A stretch of DNA of 20,217 bases, taken from positions 1 through 20,217 of IMG/VR virus record IMGVR_UViG_3300036846_000428; one strand, given 5' to 3'. The notes under the pieces were generated by a model. It was not told the origin of the DNA and searched no databases. It worked only from the letters and a program-made list of their open reading frames with translations. This DNA is from a virus. Each line of letters opens with the position of its first letter. The first letter of the stretch is position 1. Position numbers and translations under genes: made by a program. Below, in pieces: positions 14,884-20,149 of the stretch.

Positions 14884-15993
14884 ATGGCTACCTACAGCCG
14901 CGACCGCAACGCCTGGCGCCTCACCGCGCACGCGACGATCGACGGAAGAAGAAAGCGCCGGACGCGCGACTTCGACGCGCCCGACACGCGCCTCGGAAGA
15001 AAGCACGCCGAGCTCGAAGAATCGAAGTTTCGCGAGCAGATCGAGGCCGAGCTCGACAAGCCGGCGACTGGCACCTTCGCCGAGGAGGCGCAAGCCTTTC
15101 TCGCCCGCCTGGCCGAGAACTGCAAAGACGACAGTGTGAAAAGCCGCGAGTCCGCGCTGCGTCTTCACGTGCTTCCCTACCTCGGCCGCCTCGACTTCGA
15201 GGACGACCGACTGGCGATCGAGGTCGCCAACATGCACGCCGCCTGGGCTGCGGATGGCTTCGCTCGCACGAGCCGCTACCGCTGGCACAAGATCGTCCGC
15301 CAGATCTTCGCCGAGGCCTACCGGCTCGAACGGATCGAGCGCGATCCGCTGCGAGTCTTCAATCGGCGCGCGCCCGGTAGCCCGAAGCGCGAGCACGAGC
15401 TCGTCGTGCCGAGCGCCGAGGAGATCGCCCGAATCGAGGCCCACGCGCCGCGCGCCTACCGCGACGGCTTCGTCTTATTCGTGCGGATCTCGGCCCGTAC
15501 CGGCGCCCGGTCCGGATCGGTCCGGAATCTTCGCTGGCGCGACGTCGACCTCGACGAGGCGACGCTCTACTTCGGCACGACCAAGGAGGACAAGCCCTAC
15601 ACGGTCGCGATCGACGCCGGCCTTTGCGACGAGCTCCGAGACATGCGCCGCAAGGCCCGCGAGACCGCCTTCTCGCTAGGCCTGGGCGCTCGGCTCGAAG
15701 ATCTGTACGTCTTTCACTCGAACGGCGGCACGAGGCCGCTGAGCGTCTCACAGCCGACGCATTACTTCCGCCGAGCAGCCGACGACGCCGGACTGTCCGA
15801 CGTTCACCTGCACTGTCTTCGGCACTATCACGCGTCCGTCTGTCTCCGGTCTCGGCGCCTCTCGTACAAGGAGGTCGCGACGCGCCTCGGCTGCACGGAG
15901 GCGAACGTGATCGAGAACTACAGCCACCTAGTCGACGGCGACGCCGATCGCCGAGCGGCCGACCTCATGTCGGAGATCTTCGCGACCGGCTAG
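14884..15993 (+). CDS. int: Tyrosine site-specific integrase
   Basis: Recombines attP and attB to integrate or excise the phage. The 369-residue length fits a lambda/L5-type integrase: an N-terminal arm-binding domain (NAWRLTAHATIDGRRKRRTRD), a core-binding SAM-like domain (about residues 65-160) and the catalytic domain. Catalytic residues: R209 in ARTGARSGSVRNLRWRDVD, a beta-hairpin Lys in GTTKEDKPYTV, H310 and R313 in HCLRHYHAS, and nucleophile Y346 in VIENYSHL. The conserved LGH motif is RLGC here, so Cys337 replaces the usual His/Trp. Start is supported by GGGAGAA upstream. Its stop overlaps that of the leftward gene by 4 bases, so the genes converge. Confidence 0.93.
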   Translation: MATYSRDRNAWRLTAHATIDGRRKRRTRDFDAPDTRLGRKHAELEESKFREQIEAELDKPATGTFAEEAQAFLARLAENCKDDSVKSRESALRLHVLPYLGRLDFEDDRLAIEVANMHAAWAADGFARTSRYRWHKIVRQIFAEAYRLERIERDPLRVFNRRAPGSPKREHELVVPSAEEIARIEAHAPRAYRDGFVLFVRISARTGARSGSVRNLRWRDVDLDEATLYFGTTKEDKPYTVAIDAGLCDELRDMRRKARETAFSLGLGARLEDLYVFHSNGGTRPLSVSQPTHYFRRAADDAGLSDVHLHCLRHYHASVCLRSRRLSYKEVATRLGCTEANVIENYSHLVDGDADRRAADLMSEIFATG

Positions 15994-16571: not shown

Positions 16572-16631
16572 CTTCGACCCCCCGACCGGATCAGATATCA
16601 CGAAGGTGCAATACCCGTAGCACGTACCGAT

Positions 16632-16658
16632 ACTTTCCTAGGTAATAGCAGGAAAAGT
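16632..16658. promoter_or_regulatory. Imperfect dyad over the leftward promoter
   Basis: ACTTTCCT (16632-16639) and AGGAAAAGT (16650-16658) form an inverted repeat with one extra A, around a 10-base centre that contains the proposed leftward -10 box. Likely an operator; its binding protein is not shown. Confidence 0.45.
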
Positions 16659-16671
16659 GTCGGGCTGTCAC
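16642..16671 (-). promoter_or_regulatory. Candidate leftward promoter
   Basis: On the minus strand GTGACA (16671-16666) is followed after 18 bases by TATTAC (16647-16642), a fair sigma70/SigA-type pair. It would start transcription near 16635 and drive the leftward HTH gene. It lies in the A/T-richer 108-base divergent region. Confidence 0.5.
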
Positions 16672-16676
16672 CTTGT

Positions 16677-16701
16677 AAGTACCGGACCGGAGCCGGTACT
16701 T
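16677..16701. promoter_or_regulatory. Operator-like dyad before the repressor
   Basis: AAGTACCGG (16677-16685) and CCGGTACTT (16693-16701) form a perfect 9-base inverted repeat with a 7-base spacer, ending 8 bases before the repressor ATG. The position suggests autoregulation by the XRE protein. The 11-mer GCCGGTACTTC at 16692-16702 recurs at 20151-20161, giving a possible half-site near the genome end. Confidence 0.6.
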
Positions 16702-17233: not shown

Positions 17234-17391
17234 GCGGCCGGCGATACAACGAGCCGAGACACGAGCACTGGCGCAGCTACGGCCGGCCGGTCGAAGCAAC
17301 GACCGTGCCGCCGCACTACAAGCGCGACCGAAACCGGCTCCGGCGAAAGATGCGCCGGCGCAGCCGACAAGCACAGAGGAGGCACAAGTGA
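17230..17391 (+). CDS. Small arginine-rich protein (53 aa)
   Basis: Not recognised. Starts GTG in the previous stop and ends in a GTGA overlap with recT, so it is embedded in the operon. Strongly basic, with a C-terminal run of Arg/Lys (RDRNRLRRKMRRRSRQAQRR). It may bind nucleic acid. Its 3' end carries the AGAGGAGG ribosome-binding site for recT. Confidence 0.62.
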   Translation: MSGRRYNEPRHEHWRSYGRPVEATTVPPHYKRDRNRLRRKMRRRSRQAQRRHK

Positions 17392-18185
17392 CCGACGTCG
17401 AGAAATGGGAACGGCCGAACCTCGGCAAGGACATGCTGCGCCGCCAGTTCGCCCCGCAGGCGAGCGATCTGGAGCTCGAACACTTCGCGCTCGTCTGTCG
17501 GCATCTCGACCTCGACCCCTATATCGACCAGATCGTGCTGATCGGGCGCAACCAGAAGACGACACAGAAGGTAAACGGGCGCGACGTCGAGACCTGGGAG
17601 CTCGTGCATAAGCCGCAGATCACCGTCGCCGGCCGGCGGGCGATCGCCACCCGAACCGGACGATTCGCCGGCGCGATCGGGCCGCAATGGTGCGCGAAGC
17701 GCGAGATCGGTCCGGACGGTAAGAAGCTGCCGCTCGAATGGCTCGACGTGTGGGACGACGACGACGAAAAGCCCTACGCGGCGCGCTGCCTGGTCTTCGT
17801 CACTGGTTGGGTCATGCCGACGAATGGGACCGCGAAATGGTCCGAATTCGCGCAGTTCACTGACCGCGAAAAGAAGCACCTTTCGCCGTTCTGGTCCGGC
17901 GCGCCGTCTCACATGCTCGGAAAGGTCGCCGAGGCGCTCGCGCTGCGGCGCGCATTTCCCGAAGTCGAGCAGGCAGTCGCCTACGCCGAGCAAGGCGAAA
18001 ACCTCGAAGACGGCGCAGGCGAGGAGCTGCCGCTCGAAACTCCGAGAAATCTGCCGCCACCTGCACCGCAGCCGATCGAGACGACCGTGCGGTCGCGAAG
18101 CTCGCCGCGCTCGCGACGAGATCTCGACGATCGGCCGCCAGATGACCTATACGACAATTCGCCGGAAGGACGAGGTCAGGCATGA
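17388..18185 (+). CDS. recT: RecT/Bet-family single-strand annealing protein
   Basis: Promotes annealing of complementary strands during phage recombination and replication. Family hallmarks are clear: LDLDPYIDQIVLIGR, then ITVAGRRAIATRTGRFAG, and the conserved block LSPFWSGAPSHMLGKVAEAL followed by ALRRAFPEVEQAVAY. The core ends near residue 205; the last 60 residues are Pro/Arg/Ser/Asp-rich and likely disordered, a possible partner-binding tail. Start is GTG at 17388 with a strong AGAGGAGG upstream. No exonuclease partner (RecE, YqaJ, Exo) is seen beside it, so it acts alone or with a host nuclease. The next ATG overlaps its stop. Confidence 0.9.
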   Translation: MTDVEKWERPNLGKDMLRRQFAPQASDLELEHFALVCRHLDLDPYIDQIVLIGRNQKTTQKVNGRDVETWELVHKPQITVAGRRAIATRTGRFAGAIGPQWCAKREIGPDGKKLPLEWLDVWDDDDEKPYAARCLVFVTGWVMPTNGTAKWSEFAQFTDREKKHLSPFWSGAPSHMLGKVAEALALRRAFPEVEQAVAYAEQGENLEDGAGEELPLETPRNLPPPAPQPIETTVRSRSSPRSRRDLDDRPPDDLYDNSPEGRGQA

Positions 18186-18394
18186 CCGAGCGAAAAGACA
18201 ATTACGACACCGCGTCCGAAATGGCGAATTGGGCCCATGACCTCAACGCCGATCAGGAGCTCGCCGCGGCGCAGGTCTTCGCGATCCTCTCGGTCGCCGA
18301 CGCGATCCGCGCCGCCGGCGAATCGGTCCGAGCACTTTCCGAGGCGATCGAGGCCGTCTATCCGGCGCCCGAGCTGCCGGCACAGCAGTCGTGA
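18182..18394 (+). CDS. Small helical protein of unknown function (70 aa)
   Basis: Not recognised. Starts in the recT stop (ATGA) and is followed by a GTGA overlap. Residues 10-60 form long Ala/Glu-rich helices (NADQELAAAQVFAILSVADA), ending EAIEAVYPAPELPAQQS. Linked by translation to recT, so it may assist replication or recombination; no direct evidence. Confidence 0.65.
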   Translation: MTERKDNYDTASEMANWAHDLNADQELAAAQVFAILSVADAIRAAGESVRALSEAIEAVYPAPELPAQQS

Positions 18395-18561
18395 GACTTC
18401 GCCGTCGTCGCGAGGCGACACAGACCGGCGAGTATCCGATCAGTCACGTGCAGCTCGTCGAGGCGCCCGAACTGCCGCCGATCGACCTCGGCGAGGTCGT
18501 CGAGGAATGGATGCGGAGCAAGGAAGCGGCGCGCTACATCTTCGGCGGTCGCGATGACTGA
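18391..18561 (+). CDS. Small protein of unknown function (56 aa)
   Basis: Not recognised. Starts GTG in the previous stop and overlaps the next ATG by 8 bases. Begins with an Arg cluster (RLRRRREATQTG), then YPISHVQLVEAPELPPIDLG and an acidic helix (EVVEEWMRSKEAARYIFGGRDD). Support comes from the overlaps on both sides. Confidence 0.6.
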   Translation: MRLRRRREATQTGEYPISHVQLVEAPELPPIDLGEVVEEWMRSKEAARYIFGGRDD

Positions 18562-18766
18562 CGAGCAGAAGATCCTCGACGACCTGCTCGTGCACTACCG
18601 CGAGCAGCTCGCCAAGCTGAATCGGAACCTCGAACGGCTGAAATTCGACCCGCTATTCGACGACGACGCCGCGAGCGCGCTCGAACTAGACGACTTACGG
18701 CAGGCCGTCGACATCACCGGCAGATACCTCGTCAAGTGCGGCCGACACGTCCGCGAGGAGACGTGA
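18554..18766 (+). CDS. Small coiled-coil protein (70 aa)
   Basis: Not recognised. Charged helical protein with heptad-like spacing in residues 5-30 (ILDDLLVHYREQLAKLNRNL), an acidic middle (DPLFDDDAASALELDD) and a second helix. Stop overlaps the next GTG. Perhaps a regulatory or replication accessory protein; not shown. Confidence 0.63.
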   Translation: MTDEQKILDDLLVHYREQLAKLNRNLERLKFDPLFDDDAASALELDDLRQAVDITGRYLVKCGRHVREET

Positions 18767-18903
18767 AAGGGAACGCGATAAAAGGCCGGCTCAGATTCGG
18801 CGGCGCGACCATAAACGCGCCGTTTCCGAGCTGCATCGTCGTCTTTCGCTGGCCCGTTACAAGTCGCGCGCAATCTCCGACAGAGATCGTGACCTGTGGA
18901 TAA
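18763..18903 (+). pseudogene. Fragment resembling the C-terminus of a phage adenine methylase
   Basis: A 46-residue ORF starting GTG in a GTGA overlap. Its first 30 residues (MKGNAIKGRLRFGGATINAP then FPSCIVVFRW) resemble the C-terminal strand pair of phage N6-adenine methyltransferases of the Dam/PF05869 group, which typically read IxGRLxFGG...APFPSxIVVF. No SAM-binding or DPPW catalytic motif exists upstream, where an unrelated coiled-coil gene lies. So either a methylase was deleted down to its end or a short domain has been retained. The TAA stop lies in the first DnaA-box-like site. Resemblance judged by eye. Confidence 0.5.
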
Positions 18904-19004
18904 GTGCTGCATAACCCTGTGGATAACTTGTTGAAAGACCACGAAGGTACACGGGATAACGCATGGATAACCCTAAAGGTTCCACTTGACAGCTATGTGC
19001 ATAA
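18895..19004. other. DnaA-box cluster, candidate replication origin
   Basis: TGTGGATAA (reverse complement of the classical DnaA box TTATCCACA) occurs perfectly at 18895-18903 and 18918-18926. Near matches in the same orientation: TGTGCATAA at 18996-19004 (8/9), CATGGATAA at 18962-18970 (7/9), and weaker ones at 18951-18959 and 18906-18914. The stretch is clearly A/T-richer than its surroundings and lies in the longest gap (18904-19097) of the early region. This is the expected look of a DnaA-dependent origin; an operator array for the downstream HTH protein is the alternative. Confidence 0.62.
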
Positions 19005-19097
19005 TCCAGGCGAGCGCCGGCGCCGGCCGCTTAAAGGAAGCCGGGCGCCCTTTGCGCTCGACGCCGTGGCAGATGGTTGCAGACGAAAGCTATCGCT

Positions 19098-19520
19098 GTG
19101 ATAGATAGTGAGCCGGTCGAATTCGCGTCGCCTTTGAGCTACGAAGTCACAGTGAAAGCTGTCTGTCGCTGGACCGATGACCACTACGAAGTAGCAGCGA
19201 TCCGCGTCGAAGGTGGCGATCTGACAGCCGCGGGAATGCGTGCAGTCCGATGGGCCGAGGTCTTCCGCGGCGGCCTGGCGCCGCTTCGTCCGCTGGTCTT
19301 CGCGCACTTCCTCGACGGACGAGACGAGCGCGATCTGACCGAGGCCGAACTGCTGGCGGTCGTCTACGCGACCGCGTGCGCGCTACACGCCGACCCGGTC
19401 GTCGAGATCGCTGCGCAGTTCGGCATCTCTCGCTCGACGGCGAATAAGAAGGTGATCGCTGCGCGCCGATCTGGCTATCTGCCGAAGACGACGCAAGGAG
19501 CGCGACGTGCCTGGACATAG
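19098..19520 (+). CDS. HTH regulator with sigma-like C-terminal domain
   Basis: About 140 residues; start uncertain (GTG at 19098 with weak GAAAG upstream, or TTG at 19077). The N-terminal half is an alpha/beta domain (YEVTVKAVCRWTDDHYEVAA then IRVEGGDLTAAGMRAVRWAE). The C-terminal half is an HTH of the kind found in many actinobacterial elements: DLTEAELLAVVYATACALHA, DPVVEIAAQFGISRSTANKK, VIAARRSGYLPKT. Probably a transcription regulator that binds nearby DNA, perhaps the repeats just upstream. The stop overlaps the next gene, whose ribosome-binding site (AAGGAG) lies within this one. Confidence 0.72.
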   Translation: MIDSEPVEFASPLSYEVTVKAVCRWTDDHYEVAAIRVEGGDLTAAGMRAVRWAEVFRGGLAPLRPLVFAHFLDGRDERDLTEAELLAVVYATACALHADPVVEIAAQFGISRSTANKKVIAARRSGYLPKTTQGARRAWT

Positions 19521-19800
19521 CGAGCGACGGATCAAAGTGAAGACGCAGCACGTCTATACCTTCACGTTCGACTGGCCAGTCTCGGCAGACGAGGCCGACG
19601 CCGTGCTCGGCCCTGGCGCACGCCGTCTCCTCGATCTCGCAGTCGTCGACGAGCTGATCGAGAACGGCCTAAACCGCAACGCCATACGAGCAGCAGTAGC
19701 GCGGGCGATCGGCTACGACGACCTAGCGGATTACCTATCCGCGCTGGCCGATGATTCGCAGCAGCGAGGCGAGCGCGATCACGCCGACCTCGATAAGTAA
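19507..19800 (+). CDS. Protein of unknown function (97 aa)
   Basis: Not recognised. Start GTG at 19507 with AAGGAG six bases upstream, a strong site. N-terminal strands (RIKVKTQHVYTFTFDWPVSA) lead to two or three helices with DLAVVDELIENGLNRNAIRA and AIGYDDLADYLSALADD. Co-transcribed with the HTH gene, whose last 14 bases it overlaps. No motif indicates a function. Confidence 0.7.
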   Translation: MPGHSERRIKVKTQHVYTFTFDWPVSADEADAVLGPGARRLLDLAVVDELIENGLNRNAIRAAVARAIGYDDLADYLSALADDSQQRGERDHADLDK

Positions 19801-19855
19801 GACGATCGTCTGTGTGTCATTCACCTGCACCACATACCCGCGACAGACTGATGAC

Positions 19856-20149
19856 ATGACAGACGACCCGCGTATGTGGTCTCGATCGTGGCGACGTCTG
19901 GCTCGTGCAGTGATCGACCGTGACCTCGGCCTGTGTCAGATCAAAGGACCGCACTGCACGACCTACGCGACCGAGGTCGACCACATCGTGCCGAGGATCG
20001 AAGGCGGCGCGCTGTTCGATCCTGCCAACCTTCGGGCCGCCTGCCGTGCATGTAATTCGCGCGCCGGCGCGCAGTTAGGTAACTCCCGCGCTGCGGCGCG
20101 CGGCGCGCGCTACCGCCAGTCGACCGCCCCCTACCTCTCGCGCTTCTAA
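19856..20149 (+). CDS. HNH endonuclease
   Basis: Codes for 97 residues from the ATG at 19856. Zinc-finger/HNH core: C27 and C34 (LCQIKGPHC), VDHIVPRIEGG with D42 and H43, N58 in FDPANLRAACRAC, and C63/C66 completing the second zinc pair. Small HNH proteins of this type next to terminase genes take part in cos cleavage and packaging in HK97-like phages. The gene sits about 85 bases before the terminase genes if the genome ends join. The basic C-terminus (ARGARYRQS) may bind DNA. An upstream in-frame ATG at 19751 lies in the previous gene and is rejected. Confidence 0.9.
   Translation: MTDDPRMWSRSWRRLARAVIDRDLGLCQIKGPHCTTYATEVDHIVPRIEGGALFDPANLRAACRACNSRAGAQLGNSRAAARGARYRQSTAPYLSRF

Follow-up and report, generated by a model that had tools for sequence, protein, structure and literature searches.

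The stretch of DNA analysed here, called the window, is a complete IMG/VR entry of 20,217 bases that appears to represent a small temperate phage almost in full. Terminase genes occupy its left end, genes for capsid, tail and lysis are present, and an HNH endonuclease gene stands at the right end. Its terL is akin to the terL of 14-17-kb actinophages such as RRH1, Emperor and SallySpecial, and the source, a small soil phage, is best explained as a temperate actinophage. A terL profile search gave one match among 61 Actinomycetota genomes, and no host link was obtained by way of prophage terminases. Searches for tRNAs and Rfam families returned no matches, and GC skew carried no informative signal. 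The features that matter below are the following.

14884-15993: integrase gene
17388-18185, plus strand: gene for a RecT-family single-strand annealing protein (Pfam RecT 1.1e-14, PHROG 7.6e-28), used as the marker of the locus in relatives
18182-18394, 18391-18561 and 18554-18766 (block 18182-18766), plus strand: three short open reading frames (ORFs) with no assigned function
18767-19076, no strand: gap between called genes that contains the array, GC 0.58
18886-19005, plus strand: putative DnaA-box array and predicted unwinding region, lowest in stability of all 120-bp windows in the sequence
18895-18903, plus strand: box 1, TGTGGATAA (TTATCCACA), perfect
18904-19101: 65-residue ORF in the array gap, with a low gene score and without a PHROGs match
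18906-18914, plus strand: weak site GCTGCATAA, 2 bp from box 1
18918-18926, plus strand: box 2, TGTGGATAA, perfect
18929-18937, plus strand: weak site TGTTGAAAG, 2 bp from box 2
18951-18959, plus strand: weak site ACGGGATAA
18962-18970, plus strand: site CATGGATAA, two mismatches, 2 bp from the weak site ACGGGATAA
18996-19004, plus strand: box 3, TGTGCATAA (TTATGCACA), a full match to TTATNCACA
19077-19520, plus strand: gene for a helix-turn-helix (HTH) protein (HTH_23, E 0.0029, below the cutoff), at the position of the initiator-like gene of relatives
19507-19800, plus strand: ORF with no assigned function
19751-20149, plus strand: HNH endonuclease gene, the right border of the RecT-to-HNH locus

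Thirty ORFs compared with PHROGs, and ten of these with Pfam, gave no match to polymerase, primase, helicase or initiator families. This agrees with the initial annotation, which had recognized none of these and had described the element as one without replication genes. The description holds for the families named, but it overlooked the RecT gene that ends upstream of the gap.

Two perfect sites 23 bases apart had been reported, together with a third site matching at eight of nine positions and several weaker ones, all in one orientation. The perfect pair is present as boxes 1 and 2 (23 bp from start to start), and the weaker sites at 18906, 18929, 18951 and 18962 do share its sense. The third site, box 3, also lies in this sense, but it matches TTATNCACA in full, so that there are three consensus boxes within 110 bp rather than two. 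The DnaA consensus is given as TTWTNCACA, and after TTAT the fifth position is best filled by C, next by A or G and last by T (PMC5835720, in part). Sites of the form TTRTNCACA occur in the 20,217 bp at boxes 1, 2 and 3 only.

Shuffled sequences give a measure of how rarely such a cluster arises. The expected number of TGTGNAYAA sites is 0.05 per window, and three were reached in none of 100 shuffles. Two same-strand TTATNCACA sites within 110 bp appeared in 0 of 2000 dinucleotide shuffles of the whole window and in 0 of 20,000 shuffles of the gap only. A census of weak sites, allowing up to three mismatches to TGTGGATAA in segment 18885-19010, finds seven sites on the same strand and one on the opposite strand; at least seven were seen in 2 of 5000 shuffles of that segment, and none of the other 125-bp stretches listed for the window has more than four per strand.

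The seven sites follow one another at 11, 12, 11, 22, 11 and 34 bp. They share one helical register of about 11 bp (resultant 0.988 at the best period), which was equalled in 4 of 20,000 random placements, and in three cases exactly 2 bp separate neighbouring sites. Low-affinity DnaA sites of E. coli are likewise described as exactly 2 bp apart, in the same direction and on one face of the helix (PMC4451416, in part).

The array is also the least stable DNA of the window. The nearest-neighbour stability minimum falls at 18956-19005 for 50 bp, at 18899-18978 for 80 bp and at 18886-19005 for 120 bp. Part of this low stability comes from the boxes themselves, and the spacers alone lie at the 2.6th percentile. 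The gap had been called richer in A/T than its surroundings, and 50-bp windows across the array indeed have a G+C content of 42-48%, while the window as a whole has about 66%. A DnaA-trio adjoining a box is an accessory origin feature and was not treated as required; no run of three or more triplets was found near the array. Next in low stability among the 80-bp stretches comes 16602-16681, which lies near the start of a leftward HTH gene, upstream of a cI-like gene, and is probably a divergent promoter region.

The same 9-mer can be found in bacterial chromosomes. A tight pair of perfect boxes occurs in 53 of 396 Actinomycetota genomes, and eight of the 12 chromosomal loci that were fetched carry 12-22 perfect boxes together with an ORF bearing a DnaA signature. 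Pfam confirms DnaA and DnaN at two loci (L310 and L313), and in some Actinomycetota the gap between dnaA and dnaN is filled with the 9-mer. Because the boxes stand beside DnaA-signature ORFs, TTATCCACA is likely a chromosomal DnaA box in some Actinomycetota, although it may not be the box preferred by the host of this phage. The G+C content of the chromosomal loci is 57-65%. In one Actinomycetota genome a tight box pair lies directly upstream of a dnaB helicase gene (L318, 3817-3837).

Pairs of this kind are found in other viruses as well. Direct pairs of the perfect box occur at no fewer than 120 loci of IMG/VR, compared with 76 stretches for a reversed-letter control in the whole collection. 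Among the 120 loci listed (L050-L169), 110 of 152 box pairs lie outside ORFs of at least 100 residues, compared with 23 of 88 control pairs. Their periods are mainly 11-13 and 20-23 bp, which places the pairs in helical phase, counted over all 120 (an earlier histogram covered 80 of them), while the control periods are for the most part multiples of three. The genes adjoining the pairs are mixed and include terminase, primase/helicase and a DnaD-like loader (87 of the 126 neighbouring ORFs listed were scanned). The contigs are mostly unrelated to this phage, and ten of the 120 listed encode an HNH relative.

Relatives of the phage were collected through RecT, terL and capsid, never through the box. 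Twelve were counted, namely those in which the RecT-to-HNH locus could be delimited, with borders set by hand; the count omits three with an incomplete locus (G010, G012a and G017, 0 sites each) as well as G004, G007, G014 and short contigs, which have no locus. In the 12 relatives all nine TTRTNCACA sites (read as TGTGNAYAA) lie within the locus, which amounts to 36,108 bp, and all have one sense. The 137,258 bp outside the locus contain none, and none has the opposite sense.

Conservation of the repeats in relatives, which had been proposed as a check, is borne out for the place and sense of the boxes that relatives have, less so for the array. Four of the 12 relatives (G001, G011, G012 and G015) have no box at all, and the intergenic array is absent from the nearest RecT relatives. 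Something similar exists only in G013, where two intergenic boxes 12 bp apart (2285 and 2297) follow a weak RecT homologue (Pfam E 0.002) and form the least stable 80 bp of an 18.2-kb record. Two relatives with a second type of initiator-like gene (G002 and G003) have one TGTGGACAA each in the locus, that of G002 inside the initiator-like gene. A box-like TGTGAATAA is found outside the locus in short contigs, directly behind terL (L005 1753, L008 2077, L014 4148); it belongs to a conserved element at the terL-portal junction made of a GTTATCCGTA part and a TGTGAATAACTGCACTA part.

In five relatives (G005, G006, G008, G009 and G016) the box lies within a gene whose product is a winged-helix protein (alignment A2). 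Behind the box, four such genes contain repeats about 22-24 bp apart, many of them palindromic. The genes with these repeats lie at L033 8092-8685, L032 3249-3881, L034 8718-9206 and L042 14643-15164, and the sequence of the repeats differs from phage to phage. It could be asked whether TGTGGATAA in the five relatives is a coincidence of coding for the peptide motif GYLxVDK; this was rejected by means of homologues found without the box.

A scan with A2 search peptides that left out the box region yielded 12 homologues, seven of them new. Among these seven, TGTGNAYAA is present at +185 to +209 in five, as a perfect TGTGGATAA in three and as TGTGGACAA in two, while random synonymous codons would give 0.096 (P 1.8e-9, a value that ignores the relatedness of the genes). 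The remaining two have no box at +185 to +209, and one of them has a box at +410. In L324 the protein motif is lost, yet a perfect box stands 21 bp earlier. Across L324-L334 the box at +185 to +209 is kept at the DNA level within coding sequence, and T stands at rare wobble positions. In five of the 12 loci the fetched stretch has its stability minimum at +262 to +319 of the winged-helix gene.

The anatomy of these genes suggests that they encode initiators; their matches to HTH_36 are weak. The model of the protein is good only in the first 70 or so residues, and Foldseek matched it best to generic winged-helix regulators such as CodY and MarR (best E 1.4e-3), so the fold assigns no initiator family. 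Since the DnaA box accompanies an initiator-like gene in these relatives, DnaA may be only a helper there.

No relatives of the window's own HTH protein turned up among viral contigs, phages, plasmids and 63 genomes, and its single-sequence model is poor (pLDDT 55). It may be a regulator, a helper or an initiator.

A regular row of boxes, with a site at the same place in most relatives, makes the array probably the place where host DnaA starts copying the phage. Judged from sequence, the cluster is probably a phage origin resembling oriC, at which host DnaA is recruited. The recruitment of host DnaA, proposed in the initial annotation, is favoured by the identity of the boxes, their phasing, the stability minimum, the confinement of boxes to the locus in relatives and the presence of the 9-mer in chromosomes; from these we infer that DnaA binds, that the DNA melts, that helicase is loaded and that the array acts as an origin. 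Host DnaA would dock on the three consensus boxes and would spread cooperatively onto the four weak sites on the same face of the helix. Melting of the A/T-rich array or of its flank could follow, after which the helicase, primase and polymerase of the host would take over. RecT, encoded directly upstream, may serve recombination-dependent replication, and the downstream HTH protein perhaps regulates or assists.

The further claim that this is an unusually minimal strategy is less secure. The phage has RecT, and since its HTH gene occupies the position of the relatives' initiator-like gene, it may encode a helper or initiator of its own. A stronger version, in which the phage has no initiator and its 120-bp miniature oriC is read solely by host DnaA, is put forward tentatively, as a possibility with somewhat less than even chances. 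Other members of the group keep one box in the coding sequence of an initiator-like gene, which would suggest a passage from initiator plus DnaA to DnaA alone.

DnaA could also bind the sites for another purpose, either to govern transcription of the HTH operon or to be titrated, with no origin present. E. coli DnaA boxes both regulate promoters and titrate DnaA (PMC5835720, in part), and box 3 overlaps a -10-like CATAAT at 19000-19005 that was noticed by eye. However, a sigma-70-type promoter was not found in 18700-19200, and the single box of the relatives, situated in initiator-like genes by repeats and low-stability DNA, fits an origin better, which leaves this explanation rather unlikely. 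It is improbable that the array is an origin with the phage HTH protein as its initiator, the repeats being its iterons and their likeness to DnaA boxes a partial mimicry or a shared site. Such an arrangement would accord with the winged-helix initiator-like gene that relatives carry at the same position, and the direct repeats that form plasmid iterons are phased (PMC5043065, in part). Against it, the HTH protein has no detectable kinship to the initiator-like genes (hhalign probability 3.8%) and its gene is without closely spaced iterons, the repeat unit matches the chromosomal DnaA box exactly, and the 9-mer is kept in relatives whose downstream proteins are unrelated.

As its alternative the initial annotation had offered operators for the HTH gene that follows. 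Taken as an operator of that protein only, with DnaA uninvolved, the array does lie directly upstream of the HTH gene, but its repeats are direct rather than palindromic, they span 110 bp with extended phasing and agree with the consensus for DnaA, and across the locus the pattern of boxes persists in relatives with differing, unrelated downstream genes; the idea is thus weakened and is now very unlikely. As for a chance cluster, the perfect sites are few, but the absence of comparable clusters from all three sets of shuffles (0/2000, 0/20,000 and 0/100) and the concentration of boxes in the relatives' locus reduce its probability almost to nothing.

An origin recruiting host DnaA, the preferred reading, can be compared with known systems. 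Bacterial oriC, as in the arrays of E. coli and the dnaA-dnaN gap of Actinomycetota, shares with the phage the 9-mer, consensus anchors with weak sites 2 bp apart in one direction and on one face of the helix, and DNA of low stability. The phage array differs in being borne by a phage, in its size of about 120 bp with three consensus boxes, and in that no DnaA-trio was found. The plasmid origins of P1, pSC101, R6K and RK2 also have DnaA sites by A/T-rich DNA and phased direct repeats (PMC5043065, in part). These origins have a dedicated initiator, whereas the window has no recognized one and its repeats are the DnaA boxes themselves.

In phage lambda the iterons of the origin lie inside gene O. 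They are bound by the O protein, as parts of the literature describe. The likeness to lambda belongs to the relatives, with their winged-helix gene, 22-24-bp repeats (many palindromic) and, in several cases, local stability minimum; unlike lambda, they add a DnaA box, and the window has neither such a gene nor such iterons. A lambda-type iteron origin was considered for the window and rejected, because closely spaced iterons were not found in 19077-19860.

Replication genes are missing from the annotation of several of the smallest tailed phages. For one group of these, phased DnaA boxes at a conserved locus offer a concrete and testable answer as to how replication starts. The box conserved at synonymous positions in phage initiator-like genes may likewise serve as a simple signature by which origins could be located in phages from metagenomes. 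DnaA boxes in a predicted phage origin have already been published (PMC11512268, in part), and in a phage that transfers its DNA in two steps the signal that stops injection reportedly contains DnaA boxes (PMC13250531, in part). No report of DnaA-box origins in small actinophages was found in the open-access literature.

The named actinophages RRH1, Emperor, SallySpecial, Schiebs, EricDab and Jessica resemble this phage in terL kinship, small size, layout and the lack of annotated replication genes, and they too have an HNH gene close to the end that comes before the terminase genes. They differ in that TTRTNCACA occurs in none of the six, and the boxes are thus not required by every such phage. 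Gene-free gaps of 250-510 bp, with no DnaA boxes, lie near the HNH gene in named actinophages (L046 13225-13733, L049 15264-15575 and L048 15672-15926).
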